DNA of 64,000 bases from Oscillatoriales cyanobacterium RM2_1_1 (GTDB lineage: Bacteria; Cyanobacteriota; Cyanobacteriia; Cyanobacteriales; Microcoleaceae): contig JAAURB010000008.1 of assembly GCA_012033335.1 (NCBI GenBank), positions 1 through 64,000 of the forward strand. Direction: 5' to 3'. The notes under the pieces were generated by a model. That model worked only from the letters and a program-made list of their open reading frames with translations. It had not been told where the DNA came from and ran no database searches. Below are positions 3,226-41,740 of the stretch, one piece after another (the stretch's first letter is position 1; every line of letters begins with the position of its first letter). Made by a program: the position numbers and the translations under genes.

Positions 3226-4245
3226 ATGGCTATTCAGCTTGAACAGGCGATCGCCGTCGGTAAATATCTGGTGACACAACGACTGCTAGGGCGCAAAAAG
3301 TTTCCCTTGGTATTGATGCTAGAGCCCCTATTTCGCTGTAATCTAGCCTGCCCAGGCTGTGGAAAAATCCAGCACCCCGGGGAGATTCTCAAGCAAAACC
3401 TTACCCCCGAGGCCTGTTTTGCAGCGGTGGAGGAATGTGGTGCCCCGGTGGTTTCAATTCCAGGGGGCGAACCCCTGTTGCATCCCCAAATCGATCAAAT
3501 CGTTCAGGGGTTAGTCGAGCGCCGAAAGTTTGTCTATCTCTGCACCAATGGCATCTTGCTAGAAAAAAGTCTAGATAAATTTCAGCCCTCTGCCTATCTC
3601 ACCTTTAGTATCCATCTTGATGGTTTGCAGCAAAAACACGATCAATGTGTAGACCGGGAAGGGGTGTTTGAAATTGCGATTCAGGCGATCAAAGCCGCCA
3701 AATCCAGAGGATTTCGAGTCACGACAAATACGACTATTTTTACCGGAACTGACCCACAGGAAATCCAGGAATTTTTTGATTTCCTAGCCGAATTGCACCT
3801 GGATGGGATGATGATCTCGCCAGGTTATAGCTATGAATGGGCTCCGGATCAAGATCATTTCCTCCAGCGGGAACAGACCCAGGCCCTATTTCGGGAGATT
3901 TTAGCCCCCTTTCAACGGGGTCAAACCCGGTGGAATTTCAATCATAATCCCTTGTTTCTGGATTTTCTAATCGGCGAAAAAAATTACGAATGCACCCCCT
4001 GGGGTAGTCCGAGTTATAGCGTTCTGGGCTGGCAAAAACCCTGTTATCTAATGAATGAAGGTCACTACAAAACCTATCAAGAGTTGCTAGACAAAACGCC
4101 CTGGGAAGACTACGGACGGGCCAGTGGCAATCCCAAATGTGCGGATTGTATGGTGCATTGTGGTTACGAACCCACTGCTGCCCTTGATGCTTTGAATCCT
4201 GTCAACTTTGGCCGATCCCTGGGGGCGTTATTTGGGGCCCGATAG
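3226..4245 (+). CDS. hpnH: Adenosyl-hopene transferase HpnH (B12-independent radical SAM)
   Basis: A 339-residue radical SAM enzyme that joins a 5'-deoxyadenosyl group to diploptene, the first committed step towards C35 bacteriohopanepolyols. The [4Fe-4S] cluster motif CNLACPGC (CX3CX2C) is at about 38-45, followed by the SAM-binding segment [11 protein letters not shown]. The C-terminal part has the cysteines typical of HpnH ([12 protein letters not shown]). It starts at an ATG after a GA-rich leader. No other hopanoid gene is adjacent, so the pathway must be dispersed in this genome. Confidence 0.93.
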
Positions 4246-4375
4246 TACGGTTGCTCTCACCGAAGTTGCCGAACCTGGCATTGAAAGTTGATCAGATTTT
4301 TCGAGCAGAACCCTCAAGAGGAACCCGCCCTTTCAATTCTTGACCGAGTACTGAGTCTAGAAATCGAGCAATAAA

Positions 4376-4434
4376 ACTGCTTGACATCCTCCCGAAGCTG
4401 ACCTTGTGGGTACAGCAGGGGCTTCCCAACTTCA
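4376..4434. mobile_element. Possible IS200/IS605-type end remnant
   Basis: The segment containing GCTTGACATCCTCCCG, a GAAGC/GCTTC hairpin and GGGGCTTCCCAAC resembles the hairpin ends of IS200/IS605-group elements common in cyanobacteria. No transposase is nearby. It lies directly after the ftsH stop codon. The call rests on recognition of the end signature only. Confidence 0.35.
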
Positions 4435-4436
4435 CA

Positions 4437-6292
4437 TTAAATCGCCGATTGATTTAACCCTGGTTGTACCTGATCCAGCAAGGCTTGCAATTCTTCGCCC
4501 TCCAGGACTTCTGTCGCCAAGAGCTTTCCAGTAATGGTATCCAGGAGAGCACGGTTGTGCTGCAAAATCGATCTGGCCTGTCGATGAGCGCCTGCCACAA
4601 TTTCTTTGACTTCCTGATCAATGGCTTCGGCGGTTTTCTCGCTCATACTACGGCGGGGATTTAGTTCCCCGTTGCCCAGAAAACTACTGCGGCTTTTGCG
4701 TTCGTAAGCTAGAGGCCCTAAGGTTTGGCTCATGCCATAGGTCATCACCATCCGTTCAGCCAGGTCAGTTGCCCGTTGCAGGTCATCTGATGCACCGTTG
4801 GTCACGCAATCAAACACAATCTCCTCTGCCGCCCGTCCCCCCAGCAAGGTTGCGATTTGCTCCCGAAACTCGACTTCATCCATTAAAAACCGATCTTCAG
4901 TCGGTAAGCGCAGGGTATATCCTAGGGCTCCTACTCCCCGAGGGACAATGGAAATCTTGGAGACTTTGCCCCCTCCCGGCATCAATGCCCCCACCATGGC
5001 ATGACCCACTTCGTGATAGGCGACAATTTTTTTCTCTTTTTCATTTAAAACACGGCTTTTCTTTTCCAGTCCCGCCACTACCCGCTCAATGGCTTCCTTA
5101 AAATCAGCTTGGGCTACGGCAGTCCGTTGATTTCTGGCGGCTAGCAGGGCTGCTTCATTCACCAGATTGGCTAAGTCTGCCCCCCCAAATCCAGGGGTTT
5201 GAATGGCGATCGCCTGTAAATCAATACCTTCCCCCAGCTTTACCTTTTTGCATAGATCTCTAGAACGGCTCTACGCCCCGCCAGATCCGGGCGATCAACC
5301 AAGACCTGCCGATCAAATCGACCCGGTCGCAGCAAGGCGGCATCTAGAGCTTCCGGACGGTTCGTCGCAGCCAGAACAATTACGGTTTTACCTCCCACCC
5401 CAAAGCCATCCATTTCCGTCAGCAATTGGTTCAAGGTCTGTTCCCGTTCATCATTACTGCCACTCTGGAATCCATTTCCCCCACCCCTGGACTTGCCAAT
5501 GGCATCCAGTTCATCGATGAAAATAATGCAGGGAGCCTTGGTTTTGGCCTGTTCAAACAAGTCCCGCACCCGGGCAGCCCCCGTACCTACAAACAGCTCC
5601 ACAAATTCCGACGCTGAAATACTAAAAAACGGAACCCCGGCTTCCCCTGCCACAGCCTTTGCCATTAGAGTTTTTCCGGTTCCGGGAGGGCCTACCAGTA
5701 ATACACCCTTAGGGATTCTGGCCCCAATATCAATGTAGCGTTTGGGATTTTTGAGGAAATCGATAATTTCTGCCAGCTCTGTCTTGGCTTCTTCAACTCC
5801 AGCAACGTCAGCAAATGTGATCTTGTCTGAAGCCCCTTCTACATAGACTTTGGCTTTGCTCTTACGAATGGATAGAGCCCCTTCTGGATCCCGTTTCATA
5901 AAGAACTGAAAAGCCGCCACCAGAATCAAGGGGGGAATAATCCAGTTCAGCAACACATTCCAAGTATTGTTGGGGGGAGGAGCCGCCTGGAACACAACCT
6001 TACTCTTCTCCAACCGTTTGGGTAGCTCTGGATCGAATACTGGGGTCGTTGCTAGAACTGGCCCCAATTCACCTTCCTTCTTCCCTTTGAGGCGGTAACG
6101 AATTTCATTATCCCCCAACTGAACTCCAGCAACCTGCCCCTCTTCAACCTGCTTGATAAAAATACTGTAGGGAATTCGGGGCGGTTGTCGTCGGGGGAGC
6201 ACAATATAAGCAATCAATAACAAGCCAGCCAGAATCAATAACGTATTGCCCACTTGCCGGGATTCCGGAAATCTAGGTTTCTTAATGCCCAT
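4437..6292 (-). pseudogene. ftsH: FtsH membrane AAA+ zinc protease, broken by a 1-nt frameshift
   Basis: Two open frames together make one normal FtsH of about 618 residues. The first part (6292 down to about 5245) has the membrane anchors near residues 13-33 and 110-130, Walker A GPPGTGKT, Walker [10 protein letters not shown] and the SRH arginines. The second part supplies the zinc site HEVGH and the SDDLQRATD segment with the third metal ligand. The frame breaks at a run of five T on the plus strand (5245-5249). One more base restores KKVKLGEG followed by the conserved [21 protein letters not shown]. The second part has no credible start of its own. It may be a real deletion in one of several ftsH copies, or a homopolymer error. 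A programmed slip is less likely. Confidence 0.9.
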
Positions 6293-36530: not shown

Positions 36531-37829
36531 CTAACGATAACTCTGGGACTGAATATCCCGCAGCCGCGCCTCCGGGCGCTTGAACCGACTAATTTGCCCT
36601 TCAAAGAACTGGCGATTGGCCAGCAAATGGTCAGGATTGGGATCATCCAAGGGATACAACAACGCGGCCCGCAGGGCTTGAATCACCGCCGAAGTCACAC
36701 AGTACATCGACCGCTGAAAGGTGACCGTCAACTGCACGAGCATGTCATCCTCTCCCCGGCAGCGGTGCTGATAGTACTCCACCAGATAAGGGGGCAGGAA
36801 ATGCAGCATATCCTGCATCAGCAAGGTCGGGGGAATTCCCGCTGTCCCTACAGGAAAAGTATCAGCATATAGAATCCCGTAGTGAAAATCATTCTGATCC
36901 TCTGGTACCTGCCGAGCCTGAGCATTGTAGGATTTTGTCCCTCGAAAAGGCGCTGTCCGATAAAATACCGCTTCAACATAGGGCAATGCCGCTTCGTACA
37001 GCCACATAAAGCCTTTCGACTTGGGGATGATTTCATAACATTCCCCATCAATATGGGCATGGTGATAAATGGGCCGCCCGGCGATCGCAAAAATTCCATT
37101 CACCAGGAAATCCATCGCTTCAGGCACACTGGTGATTTTACCCTCATCGTAAAGGTCAGACATCTCAAAAAACACCGGAGCCATGACTTCCCAAAACAGC
37201 CCTAAATTGCTGTAGTAAGACAGTTGCCTCACCTGTTCAATGAACATTTCGGGAAACAGCTTGTATAAACCCATCATCACAGGATTTTTCTTGAAATAGG
37301 CTTTGATGGCCCGATCAGCGTTTCCTTTGTATTCTTCCGTGTCCAGATAGGGATCGAATTGTCCCCCCATATTCCGATGCCAGAACATGGCCCGCATACA
37401 GGCTTCGGCAAATTCCATATTCACCCGATCATGCCACAAATGATGCAATAACTTGGGCATTTTTTTGGTTTCACCCTTCTCCATGAAGGCCAGAAGTTCT
37501 GGATGGGCGGTGGCTTCTCCCCGCCAGATTCTCAAGTCCGCATCATCCCCCGCATAGTGATTGTGCAGGTCTAAATAGTCTTTGGGCAGGAAGTATTTAA
37601 AAAAGGGAAGCGGGTCTAAAAATACCTGTTCCGCGATATACAGCAGATCCCGCCAGTAAAAGTCCATCGGCACCGCATAGGCTTTGTAAATCCCGATAAT
37701 TTGCATCAAATTTTCGGGGGTGTCCGGTAGCATTGCGCCTCCGGCTTCCAGCCGATGAATCACCTCAGAAAATTCATGGGTGGAGGGGGGTAAAATGGGC
37801 TTGATTTGGGTTTCAGTTGCAACAGTCAT
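36531..37829 (-). CDS. cupA: CO2 hydration protein CupA (ChpY)
   Basis: A 432-residue subunit that converts CO2 to bicarbonate in the specialised NDH-1 (NDH-1MS) complex at the thylakoid membrane. It has no homology to classic carbonic anhydrases. His130 and Arg135 in KLLHHLWHDRVN coincide with residues reported as zinc-site residues of Thermosynechococcus CupA. Other conserved stretches are IYHHAHIDGECYE and the tyrosine-rich PYLVEYYQHR. The length (about 50 kDa) and position after ndhF and ndhD favour CupA (low-CO2 inducible) over CupB. cupS, often the next gene, is absent. Confidence 0.9.
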   Translation of the reverse strand: MTVATETQIKPILPPSTHEFSEVIHRLEAGGAMLPDTPENLMQIIGIYKAYAVPMDFYWRDLLYIAEQVFLDPLPFFKYFLPKDYLDLHNHYAGDDADLRIWRGEATAHPELLAFMEKGETKKMPKLLHHLWHDRVNMEFAEACMRAMFWHRNMGGQFDPYLDTEEYKGNADRAIKAYFKKNPVMMGLYKLFPEMFIEQVRQLSYYSNLGLFWEVMAPVFFEMSDLYDEGKITSVPEAMDFLVNGIFAIAGRPIYHHAHIDGECYEIIPKSKGFMWLYEAALPYVEAVFYRTAPFRGTKSYNAQARQVPEDQNDFHYGILYADTFPVGTAGIPPTLLMQDMLHFLPPYLVEYYQHRCRGEDDMLVQLTVTFQRSMYCVTSAVIQALRAALLYPLDDPNPDHLLANRQFFEGQISRFKRPEARLRDIQSQSYR

Positions 37830-37847: not shown

Positions 37848-37880
37848 ATTTTTGCAGTTTTTGCAGTTTTTGCAGTTTTC
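37848..37880. repeat. 9-bp tandem repeat, three units
   Basis: Three units of TTTTTGCAG lie between the 54-codon ORF and cupA, just beyond the stop codon of the small ORF. Confidence 0.8.
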
Positions 37881-37884
37881 GAAG

Positions 37885-38049
37885 TCAGATATTGCCCACT
37901 ACACTCTTGACTTGGTCTGAAATTGTGACTTTTTCAGTTTGTTGTAAATCCCGGATTGGAGCTTGAGCAGTCGTAGGATTAACGGCCCCAAGCAAACCAA
38001 TGAAAGACGAAATTTCCAAGGCAAGCCAAAACCAAAATCTGGATCTCAT
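37885..38049 (-). CDS. 54-residue secreted OB-fold-like ORF, possibly truncated
   Basis: The ATG at 38049 overlaps the ndhD stop as ATGA, so translation can be coupled. The product MRSRFWFWLALEISSFIGLL... has a hydrophobic signal-like segment ending TTAQA, then PIRDLQQTEKVTISDQVKSVVGNI and a stop. The last part resembles the first strands of NirD/YgiW-type OB-fold proteins of cyanobacteria (PIxxLQ..VTxxGxVxSVVGN), which continue for another 60 or so residues. It therefore looks like a truncated copy, with the 9-bp tandem repeats at the break. It could also be a genuine small protein of the CO2-uptake operon. Confidence 0.5.
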   Translation of the reverse strand: MRSRFWFWLALEISSFIGLLGAVNPTTAQAPIRDLQQTEKVTISDQVKSVVGNI

Positions 38050-39551
38050 GGGCTAAACTCCTTTGATGCGATCTGGGCCGGAGCAGAACTTTCAAAGGCA
38101 ACAACCATGGTCTTTGCCGTGGGTTCAATCCAGCGCAATAGCCAGTTAGGTTGAATCCCTAAAAAGAAGATCAATGCCGCCAAAACCAGAGCCGGAGCCC
38201 GTTCTGAATTGTTCACCCTGGGGTAGTAAGCTGAACTATTATCTAGTTTGCCAAAACAGGTGCGATTGAGCAAAATCACGAAATAAACTGCCGTCAGTCC
38301 AGAGGCCACAATGCACAATAAGCTCTGGATGGGAAAGACCCGAAACGTTCCCTGAAACACAAGAAACTCCGCCACAAAACCCACCAAACCGGGAATTCCA
38401 GCACTGGCCATCCCTGCCATCACCAATAGCCCACTAATTAAAGGCAAGCCGCGAATCGGATTCATCAAGCCATTGAGTACATTCAAATCCCGGGTTCCCA
38501 CCTTCGTTTCAACGACTCCCACCAGATGGAACAGGATCGCCAGAATTAATCCATGGGCAATCATCTGGGCGATCGCCCCAATCAAGCTAACGGCATTTCC
38601 GGCAGCTACCGCCACCAGAATATAACCCATGTGACCAATCGAACTGTAGGCCACCATCCGCTTAATATCCTGCTGGGCAATGGCGGTCAGAGCCCCGTAC
38701 ATGACGCTAACGACTCCAACAATAGATAAACCCGGAGCGATCAATTGCCAGGTTTCCGGAAACAGTTGCAGACCAAATCGGATTAATCCGTAGGTTCCCA
38801 ACTTGGCCAAAATCCCCCCCAGGAGAATAGTTACCGGGGGTGAGGACTCAACATAGGCATCCGGTAGCCAGGTATGGAGCGGCACCAGGGGAATTTTGAT
38901 CCCAAACCCCACCAGTAGCAAGGTCAAGAGTACTACCTGAGAGACTGTCGATAGGTTGTTAGTGTTGATGCTCCCATAATCAAAATTCGAGGCATGACTC
39001 AGCCAGGCAATTCCCAAAAATCCAGCCAGAATCAAAATTCCTGAAACCGCCGTATACAGCAGGAATTTCATCGCTGCATAACCCCGCTTTTCGCTACCCC
39101 AGATGGCAATCAACAGGTAAACCGGAATTAGCTCCACTTCATAAAATAGAACAAACAGCAATAAATTTTGGGCAAGAAATGCCCCAGCCAGAGCCGCATT
39201 CACTAGGAGAATCAAGCCGTAGTATAGCCGGGGTCGCTCAATATCAGCTCGAGTCGTGGCGATCACAATCGTCGTCAGAAATCCACTCAATCCCAGGAGC
39301 GGCAGGGATAAACCATCGGTTCCTAAGCTATAGGACAAACCCAATTGCGGAATCCAGGAAAAATATTCTGACAGTTGAAAATTGGTCATTGTCAGGTCAA
39401 AGTTTCCAGCCACTTTGATTGTCCAAATTAAGACAATGGCCATAATCACTAGGGCGGTGCTGCGAATTTGTCGAGCCGTCAGAGCAGCAGGCAAAAGCAG
39501 AATTAAAACCGCCCCTAAAATAGGGATAAGGATCAATAAACTCAGTGTCAT
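38046..39551 (-). CDS. ndhD3: NDH-1 subunit D3/D4 (CO2-uptake type)
   Basis: A 501-residue antiporter-like proton-pumping subunit of the CO2-uptake NDH-1 complex, with about 14 transmembrane helices. The conserved Glu in LLFVLFYEVELIPVYLLI, the Lys in FGIKIPLVPLHTWLPDAYVESSP and the broken-helix segments are in place. It is shorter than the respiratory NdhD1/D2 proteins. The start ATG at 39551 is 353 bp below the ndhF stop. Its stop overlaps the ATG of the small 54-codon ORF. The assignment as D3 follows the cupA-like partner. Confidence 0.9.
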   Translation of the reverse strand: MTLSLLILIPILGAVLILLLPAALTARQIRSTALVIMAIVLIWTIKVAGNFDLTMTNFQLSEYFSWIPQLGLSYSLGTDGLSLPLLGLSGFLTTIVIATTRADIERPRLYYGLILLVNAALAGAFLAQNLLLFVLFYEVELIPVYLLIAIWGSEKRGYAAMKFLLYTAVSGILILAGFLGIAWLSHASNFDYGSINTNNLSTVSQVVLLTLLLVGFGIKIPLVPLHTWLPDAYVESSPPVTILLGGILAKLGTYGLIRFGLQLFPETWQLIAPGLSIVGVVSVMYGALTAIAQQDIKRMVAYSSIGHMGYILVAVAAGNAVSLIGAIAQMIAHGLILAILFHLVGVVETKVGTRDLNVLNGLMNPIRGLPLISGLLVMAGMASAGIPGLVGFVAEFLVFQGTFRVFPIQSLLCIVASGLTAVYFVILLNRTCFGKLDNSSAYYPRVNNSERAPALVLAALIFFLGIQPNWLLRWIEPTAKTMVVAFESSAPAQIASKEFSP

Positions 39552-39904: not shown

Positions 39905-41740
39905 CTAGAACAATCCATAAGCTAATAAACCCAGAAACGCAGTCACCCCCAGAATAATAGTCAGGGCGTAAAATTGAGTCTGACCGGAAACGTTATACCG
40001 CAAACTTTGACCGCCAAAGATCGTGACTATTCCTACTAAATTGACCAGTCCATCGACTAAGTAGCGATCAATCCAATACATCAGCCTAGAGACCGTCGCC
40101 ACGATGGCAATAATCGTAATTCGATAAAGCTTGGCCGTATAGAAATCATAGGCAAAAAAGTCCTGAACTGGTTGGGAAGCTAACTTAATCGGTTTCTTCC
40201 AGTTTTCACCGCAGTAGATGGCAACTCCAGCTCCAATCCCAACCAAGCTAGAACAGGCTAGAGTCAATACCGTCCCATAATTCAGCTCAGCCCAGGTCGG
40301 AACTACATGCCACTGCCCCAACAATATCGGCACATGTAAACAGATCCCCGCCAGAATCGTCATCGGCAAAACCAATGCCCAGAGTCCTTCCGGCGATCGC
40401 AAGGTCATCTGTCGAGGTTGCCCCGTGAATATCAGACCAAACACCCGGGTGAGACCAAAAGCCGTCAAGCCGTTCACGATTAGTAATGTCCAGACCAGGG
40501 CGGGGTAAGTGATCCAGAGATTGGCCATCAAGGACTGGAGAGCCCAAAATCCCCCAAAGGGAGGCAGGGCAATCAACGAAACCCCACCGACAATGAAGCA
40601 CAGCCCAGAGATCGGGCGGCGCGACCATAGTCCACCACACTGAGTTAGATCTTGAGTAATGCAATTAAGCACAATTCCCCCCGTACTCATGACCAACAGC
40701 GCCATGGCCAAAGCATAGGTCAGTAGAATTAACGGTGCGGTTTCCCCATGGCCTGTGCCTACTGCCACGAAAATAATTCCCATATAAGCACTGACCAGGT
40801 AAGAGATAGCGCGCTTGACATCAATTTGGGCGATCGCAATCAAACTCGCCCCCACCGCCGTGGCTAGCCCTATAAAAACCGTAGTAGCCATCACCCCAGG
40901 GGATAGGGACAGAACCGGGTCCAGCTTGATCAAAACCCAGGCCCCTACTCCCACCACCACCGCATTCCGCAGAATCGTGCTGGGAATGGGCCCCTCCATC
41001 GCCTCATCGAGCCAGAGATGTAGAGGAAACTGAGCGCACTTGCCCATAGGCCCTGCCATTAACGTTAACCCCAGAAGAGTTGCCACCCTGGGATCGAGAT
41101 CAGCGGTAGCAGCCCAGGTTGCCAGCTCAGAAAAATTCCAAGTATCTGCCAGGGGATAGAGGGCGACAACACCCATTAATAGAAATAAATCCCCGACTCG
41201 TTTAGTCAAAAACGCATCCCGTGCTCCAGTGACAACCAGGGACTGATTAAACCAGAACCCTACCAGCAGATAGGTTCCCAGGGTAAGGATTTCTAGAATG
41301 ATGTAGCTATAGAATAGAGAATTGCACAAAACCAGGCCAGAGAGCCCCGCCTCAAATAAAGCCAGCAGAGAATAAAATCGGGCCCAACCCCAATCCATTT
41401 CCATGTAACCCAGAGCATAAACCTGAGCCCCTAAATTCAGGCCCGTGATCACTAGAGTTGCTCCCAAGGTGACCGCAGAAATCTCTAGGGGAATTGAGAA
41501 GTCCAGATCAACCACCTGTAACCAGGGAATTATCAGTTCCTGAGCCGGTTTACCCCAAACTACCATCAACGCCAGCAAACCATGTAGGAACGCCAACAGA
41601 GTCGTCAGGATATTGATATAACCTGCTGGTCGGGGGCCTGTACGACGAATCAACGCTGGTGACCAGGGAACAGAAAGCAATCCTCCGACCAGAGGATAGC
41701 AAGGGATCCACCAAACTGTCTGCAACAAAAACTCATTCAT
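39905..41740 (-). CDS. ndhF3: NDH-1 subunit F3/F4 (CO2-uptake type)
   Basis: A 611-residue antiporter-like subunit with about 16 transmembrane helices, including the long lateral helix near the C-terminus. Typical residues are seen in YIILEILTLGTYLLVGFWFN, the Lys segment GPMGKCAQFPLHLWLDEAMEGP and the IDVKRAISYLVSAYMG stretch. In the NDH-1MS complex it conducts the protons coupled to CO2 hydration by CupA. It is first in the ndhF3-ndhD3-cupA order. Such operons are usually controlled by the LysR regulator NdhR/CcmR, which is not encoded next to it here. Confidence 0.9.
   Translation of the reverse strand: MNEFLLQTVWWIPCYPLVGGLLSVPWSPALIRRTGPRPAGYINILTTLLAFLHGLLALMVVWGKPAQELIIPWLQVVDLDFSIPLEISAVTLGATLVITGLNLGAQVYALGYMEMDWGWARFYSLLALFEAGLSGLVLCNSLFYSYIILEILTLGTYLLVGFWFNQSLVVTGARDAFLTKRVGDLFLLMGVVALYPLADTWNFSELATWAATADLDPRVATLLGLTLMAGPMGKCAQFPLHLWLDEAMEGPIPSTILRNAVVVGVGAWVLIKLDPVLSLSPGVMATTVFIGLATAVGASLIAIAQIDVKRAISYLVSAYMGIIFVAVGTGHGETAPLILLTYALAMALLVMSTGGIVLNCITQDLTQCGGLWSRRPISGLCFIVGGVSLIALPPFGGFWALQSLMANLWITYPALVWTLLIVNGLTAFGLTRVFGLIFTGQPRQMTLRSPEGLWALVLPMTILAGICLHVPILLGQWHVVPTWAELNYGTVLTLACSSLVGIGAGVAIYCGENWKKPIKLASQPVQDFFAYDFYTAKLYRITIIAIVATVSRLMYWIDRYLVDGLVNLVGIVTIFGGQSLRYNVSGQTQFYALTIILGVTAFLGLLAYGLF

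Follow-up and report, generated by a model that had tools for sequence, protein, structure and literature searches.

An open reading frame (ORF) of 54 codons at positions 37885–38049, on the minus strand of the 64,000-nucleotide stretch of DNA analysed here (the window), is very probably the decaying remnant of an accessory gene of the CO2-uptake operon, whose intact form encodes a roughly 120-residue exported protein of the BOF (bacterial OB-fold)/YgiW kind. What is left is an N-terminal fragment, comprising a leader and the first beta strand and then a stop. This reading draws on the homology of the ORF, its position, its truncation, the change of a conserved glycine and the lack of a second copy in the genome at the threshold used. 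The fragment itself represents ordinary gene decay, and it is the recurrent intact gene that is worth following, as an apparently constrained, exported OB-fold gene occurs in the CO2-uptake cluster of at least ten cyanobacterial species.

Genomic context of the ORF

The ORF begins with ATG, ends with TGA and encodes 54 amino acids, its ATG overlapping the stop codon of ndhD3 as ATGA, just as the sequence-only reading had described. A Shine-Dalgarno-like AAAGGAG lies ahead of this ATG within the 3′ end of ndhD3 (38058–38064, minus strand). Residues 1–30 (37960–38049, minus strand) form a hydrophobic leader ending in A-Q-A that looks like a Sec-type signal peptide, as judged by eye on the translation and on the aligned leaders of the relatives, many of which are similar. 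The stop codon (37885–37887, minus strand) falls one codon past the motif VVGN, where intact relatives continue for about 65–75 or more residues. The end of the ORF is separated by 55 bp from cupA, and this interval contains a perfect 9-bp tandem repeat of 3.4 copies detected by a repeat scan (37849–37879, minus strand), so that the earlier description of a stop shortly before the repeat and cupA agrees with the coordinates.

The neighbouring genes, all on the minus strand, are ndhF3 (39905–41740; PF00361 and PF00662; best PDB match 6tjv_F, E 1.2e-205), ndhD3, encoding a proton-pumping NDH-1 membrane subunit (38046–39551; PF00361; best PDB match 6tjv_D, E 4.6e-179), and cupA, also termed chpY, encoding a CO2 hydration protein (36531–37829; PF10216, E 1.2e-166; PDB 6tjv_P, E 4.4e-214). 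The identities previously assigned to them are in line with Pfam, and each of the three best matches a chain of 6tjv, presumably the NDH-1MS complex. For ndhF3 and ndhD3, the 6tjv chains outranked in the PDB search those of 6hum, which is taken to be the NDH-1L complex.

Homology to BOF/YgiW-type proteins

As far as VVGN, the ORF matches the N-terminus of exported BOF/YgiW-kind proteins of about 120 amino acids. When the ORF served as query against 291 genomes of the order, 21 gave matches, the window's own included. Nineteen of the other 20 genome matches lie in BOF-type open frames of 125–166 aa that have a leader and feature the pattern TISGxVxSVVGNxFILxDGTGxxIVDAGP; in each of the 19 the alignment breaks off at ORF residue 53, that is, at VVGN. 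The remaining match (G093, locus L052) falls within a frame of 591 aa with no apparent resemblance to BOF, and it was excluded from the family set.

The OB-fold-like segment suspected from the letters alone was borne out by two comparisons. A profile built from 17 intact relatives, with the window excluded, gave the ORF 33.9 bits, compared with 7.0 for the best of 2000 shuffled ORFs; the test is partly circular because 16 of the 17 profile rows came from searches that used the ORF as query. In addition, the ORF aligned at E 3e-06, in a single comparison, with a 114-aa relative that was recognized purely by its location between ndhD3 and cupA in an uncultured Microcoleaceae MAG (G001, contig CALKCV010000482.1). 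Judged by these alignments, the ORF is homologous to the N-terminus of intact BOF members.

Counting against the remnant reading, the ORF matched no Pfam or NCBIfam family up to E 10. A search of PDB sequences with the 54 residues returned no OB-fold chain; two AI-designed TIM barrels (E 2e-04 and 6.5e-04) were matched through the leader together with the following residues, with neither stretch passing alone, and were taken as products of chance or composition since designed proteins have no ancestry. Within its own genome the 54-aa query retrieved itself and two matches at E > 1 only, and among 49 pattern matches to the ORF on viral contigs none was confirmed as a relative.

By their model scores, the intact proteins are members of the bacterial OB-fold kind or stand at its margin. 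The cut-off of NF033674 (35) was passed by the proteins of G117 and G260 (scores of 36.3 and 36.2) and missed by those of L038 (23.7) and G001 (29), while the cut-off of PF04076 (25.8) was missed by all of G117, G260 and G001 (scores of 20.4, 24.1 and 21.2). A family profile termed A1, whose ten rows include the window ORF, matched YgiW (1nnx) among PDB sequences at E 1.9e-04. An AlphaFold model of the G117 protein, built with nine sequences and having a mean pLDDT of 80.8, shows strands at residues 36–48, 51–55, 60–64, 80–87 and 92–99 with a short one at 104–106, and its best PDB match is again YgiW, 1nnx (E 6e-04, TM 0.48/0.62). A complete OB barrel with five main strands is hence predicted for the intact relative.

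Compared with the known BOF/YgiW-YdeI-NirD proteins (PF04076, NF033674, 1nnx), the intact relatives share a Sec-type-looking leader and a predicted OB-like fold, whereas the cyanobacterial set often ends in a PPPWAGG-type tail and some of its members lie in the CO2-uptake operon; the window copy differs further in being cut short and in matching no family model. In other bacteria, BOF proteins reside in the periplasm and are associated with surviving stress, YgiW and SipA with that from cadmium and peroxide, and SipA with that from antimicrobial peptides as well (PMC6370654).

The intact gene between ndhD3 and cupA

With profile A1, the BOF family was detected in 70 of the 291 genomes at E ≤ 1e-8, the window's included, whose E of 3.8e-10 is no test of homology because the profile contains the window ORF. 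Nine of the 70 (G025, G029, G297, G303, G044, G107, G123, G117 and G260; places compared by eye) have BOF no more than 1.6 kb upstream of cupA, with both genes on one strand of one contig. This count is a minimum, as not every contig end was followed in genomes whose BOF and cupA are on separate contigs. The place of cupA was unlisted for G275, G276 gave no cupA match at E 1e-140, and in G238 and G258 cupA itself is cut by a contig edge. The DNA fetched around BOF in G275, G238 and G258 showed neither ndhD3 nor cupA.

On the fetched DNA of these nine genomes and G001, the order ndhD3, BOF, cupA was found in ten of ten with full-length frames, that of G303 having a TTG or GTG start and that of G025 being open on its DNA. 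The longer ORF that the sequence-only reading would look for in relatives is therefore present in ten other species, and by sequence comparison an intact gene stands at the same place in five families, namely f1 (the window's own), f4, f7, f10 and f19. BOF starts 11 to 206 bp after the ndhD3 stop in the nine genomes with an assigned start (11 bp in G117, 14 bp in both G107 and G123), and the distance between the BOF stop and cupA is 39 to 583 bp, with the exception of 1488 bp in G123. Intact operonic copies look constrained, as dN/dS was 0.11 for G107/G123 and 0.25–0.48 among four species of genus g11, values that carry no significance test and come from a comparison in which several between-genus pairs were saturated.

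The gene is rare among the loci closest to the window. Of the 80 named cupA loci nearest the window, 79 show both ndhD3 and cupA, and at E 1e-3 a BOF gene was found in the ndhD3-cupA gap of one of the 79 (L068, the contig of G001). The gap measures 8–202 bp in 60 of the 79 loci; the long values for L073 and L109 reflect a split ndhD3 match. No BOF was found in the gap at the Planktothrix (L056, L057 and L059) and Arthrospira (L073) loci. The absence of an ORF at this position in relatives, which had been named beforehand as contrary evidence, is consequently true of most relatives and untrue of ten species.

The history of the operonic copies was traced on an alignment and tree of 47 proteins, a subset of the members found that combines 37 non-operonic proteins with the ten operonic ones fetched. 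The operonic label requires three changes on this tree against a shuffle mean of 9.3, with none of 500 shuffles as low. Eight of the ten operonic proteins cluster with weak support (88/75), and seven of these share G(F/W)G(E/D)(A/S)DENE, a stretch that occurs in variant form in G001; G117 and G260 are placed in other parts of the tree and carry the SVVGN form of the window. Since the ten do not form one clade, the tree is compatible with one or several acquisitions, and either one origin with losses or two or three acquisitions would be possible.

Decay of the window copy

The ORF retains only strand 1 of the fold (36–48 in the modelled G117 relative), the remaining main strands being missing, and measured against that model a complete OB barrel is absent from the window. 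No BOF-like signal was detected between the ORF stop and cupA in the three frames of the coding strand of the ORF, and a frameshifted OB-fold continuation was rejected because none of the three tail frames carries such a signal beyond VVGN. The retained part has changed as well. Codon 45 (37915–37917, minus strand) encodes Asp where all 47 aligned intact proteins have the Gly of TISG, and directly after VVGN the window has Ile, at a position occupied by E, D, Q, N or K in every one of the 47. As far as sequence comparison can tell, conserved sites are lost through the Gly-to-Asp change and through some 70 missing codons. The window genome contains no further BOF copy at E ≤ 1e-8, with 15 of 16 candidates scored. 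The loss of constraint is read from one sequence, as the genomes searched included none of the same genus.

With longer ORFs in ten species, a stop after strand 1 and an altered glycine, the earlier suggestion of a remnant of a larger secreted OB-fold gene is supported. In the proposed course of events, the ancestral operon would have had the order ndhF3-ndhD3-[BOF]-cupA and been read as one transcript, so that the intact BOF protein would have been made together with NdhD3, exported, and put to work in the periplasm or the thylakoid lumen. A deletion, possibly aided by the adjoining short repeats, would then have taken the other strands, leaving behind AAAGGAG and the ATGA overlap as start signals, together with the signal peptide and beta strand 1. 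The leftover piece would now be drifting, a conserved site having already been altered, and its product would be inactive, probably without a role though perhaps still translated after ndhD3.

Truncation in the family is not unique to the window, since G258 also bears a truncated BOF copy. It was rejected as a second case of the window form because it is not near cupA. This copy (L145, 3378–3548; G258 C120) has no visible in-frame ATG and, by eye, is followed by a polyketide-synthase-looking gene.

Alternative explanations

The start region and the leader of the ORF look intact, as if translation were still possible, which is a counterpoint to the remnant reading and could instead mean that a small exported peptide derived from the BOF gene has been retained for a new role near NDH-1MS. 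A loose precedent is AcnSP, a 44-aa Synechocystis protein resembling the N-terminal part of another protein and, by the title of the source, an aconitase regulator (PMC7336809). The proposal is nevertheless improbable, as about 24 residues would be left once the leader is removed, a first strand alone cannot form an OB barrel, the glycine found in 47 of 47 relatives is altered, and none of the other loci examined has the truncated form at this position. The same evidence makes it unlikely that the ORF is an unnoticed small component of the CO2-uptake operon, as the sequence-only reading had also considered: the loci examined held no second 54-codon form, and most of them lack a BOF-like frame between ndhD3 and cupA altogether.

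Still less credit is given to a leader or coupling ORF that passes ribosomes from ndhD3 towards cupA, in which the peptide itself would be irrelevant. The ATGA overlap and AAAGGAG would suit such a function, yet the stop lies 55 bp short of cupA, the short gaps of 60 of the 79 named relatives leave little room and hold no BOF, and the protein homology would then be unexplained save by ancestry. It is more doubtful again that the organism has the whole gene and that the truncation arose during sequencing or assembly. The genome is a draft of 178 contigs and a short tandem repeat adjoins the break, but one local error would not both remove about 70 codons and alter the glycine ahead of the break. 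A chance open frame is scarcely conceivable: 496 of 5000 dinucleotide shuffles of the gap stayed open for at least 54 codons from the ATG of the ORF, so that openness alone is not significant and is weak evidence, whereas the profile score against the shuffle maximum (n = 2000, partly circular), the alignment with G001 and the syntenic intact homologues of ten species all speak against chance.

Relation to CO2 uptake

The slot between ndhD3 and cupA had also been compared with places where cupS-like genes occur, a comparison that does not hold. Like CupS, the small NDH-1MS subunit, the ORF product is small and encoded beside cupA in the same operon. The published gene order, as given in an excerpt of the source, is ndhF3-ndhD3-cupA-cupS (PMC11456788), and the excerpted description of NDH-1MS places CupA and CupS on the cytoplasmic side with CupS capping CupA (PMC6981117). 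The ORF, in contrast, precedes cupA and has a leader, and its PDB search returned no CupS chain; a CupS-like gene was thus rejected on place and compartment. Because CupA and CupS are on the cytoplasmic side, an exported BOF protein would sit on the opposite face of the complex, and it has been suggested that CO2 enters from the lumen and travels via NdhF3 to CupA (PMC6981117).

A further parallel is CupAR (Sll1736) of Synechocystis, likewise the product of an accessory gene of this operon, cotranscribed with cupA; it differs in being described as having 127 aa and two membrane regions (PMC11456788). CupAR provides a precedent that extra genes in the CO2-uptake operon can matter. The intact gene elsewhere may be an overlooked passenger or a partner of CO2 uptake, and if it is co-expressed with NDH-1MS, the BOF protein may be an accessory part of carbon uptake, a role testable in strains carrying the intact gene. 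The fuller proposal, in which the exported OB-fold protein from the ndhD3-cupA slot serves scattered cyanobacteria as an accessory NDH-1MS partner on the lumen or periplasm side and was lost by the window lineage, is speculative and on balance unlikely. Literature searches on the ndhD3-cupA gap, on cyanobacterial BOF/YgiW proteins and on NDH-1MS with the OB fold returned, among the matches listed, no title or abstract start naming such a gene, and the recurrent BOF slot between ndhD3 and cupA is new within the literature searched.

Other contents of the ndhD3-cupA gap

The BOF findings suggest that the gap gains and loses extra genes, and other frames occur there as well. A CDP-alcohol phosphatidyltransferase-like gene of about 200 aa is located between ndhD3 and cupA in five of the 79 named loci (L081 4415–5032, L082 4415–5020, L101, L106 and L127 4406–4996, plus strand), the PF01066 assignment being made for L101 only, and look-alike frames were seen by eye in L016, L027, L030 and L031. 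At L032, a 51-aa frame (1235–1390, on the cupA coding strand) resembles a truncated phosphatidyltransferase, of which the same-genus L031 has a whole one; it is perhaps a second extra gene decaying in the gap. L076 carries a cytochrome b561-like gene (PF01292) at 4336–4905, and L070 a UPF0175 and DUF3368 pair at 4196–4444 and 4627–4935. Near-identical frames of 34, 37 or 52 aa (MNLPKLISRLEVAKPN...) recur in several repeat units upstream of cupA in L021, L023 and L024, and these units are probably an intergenic repeat.
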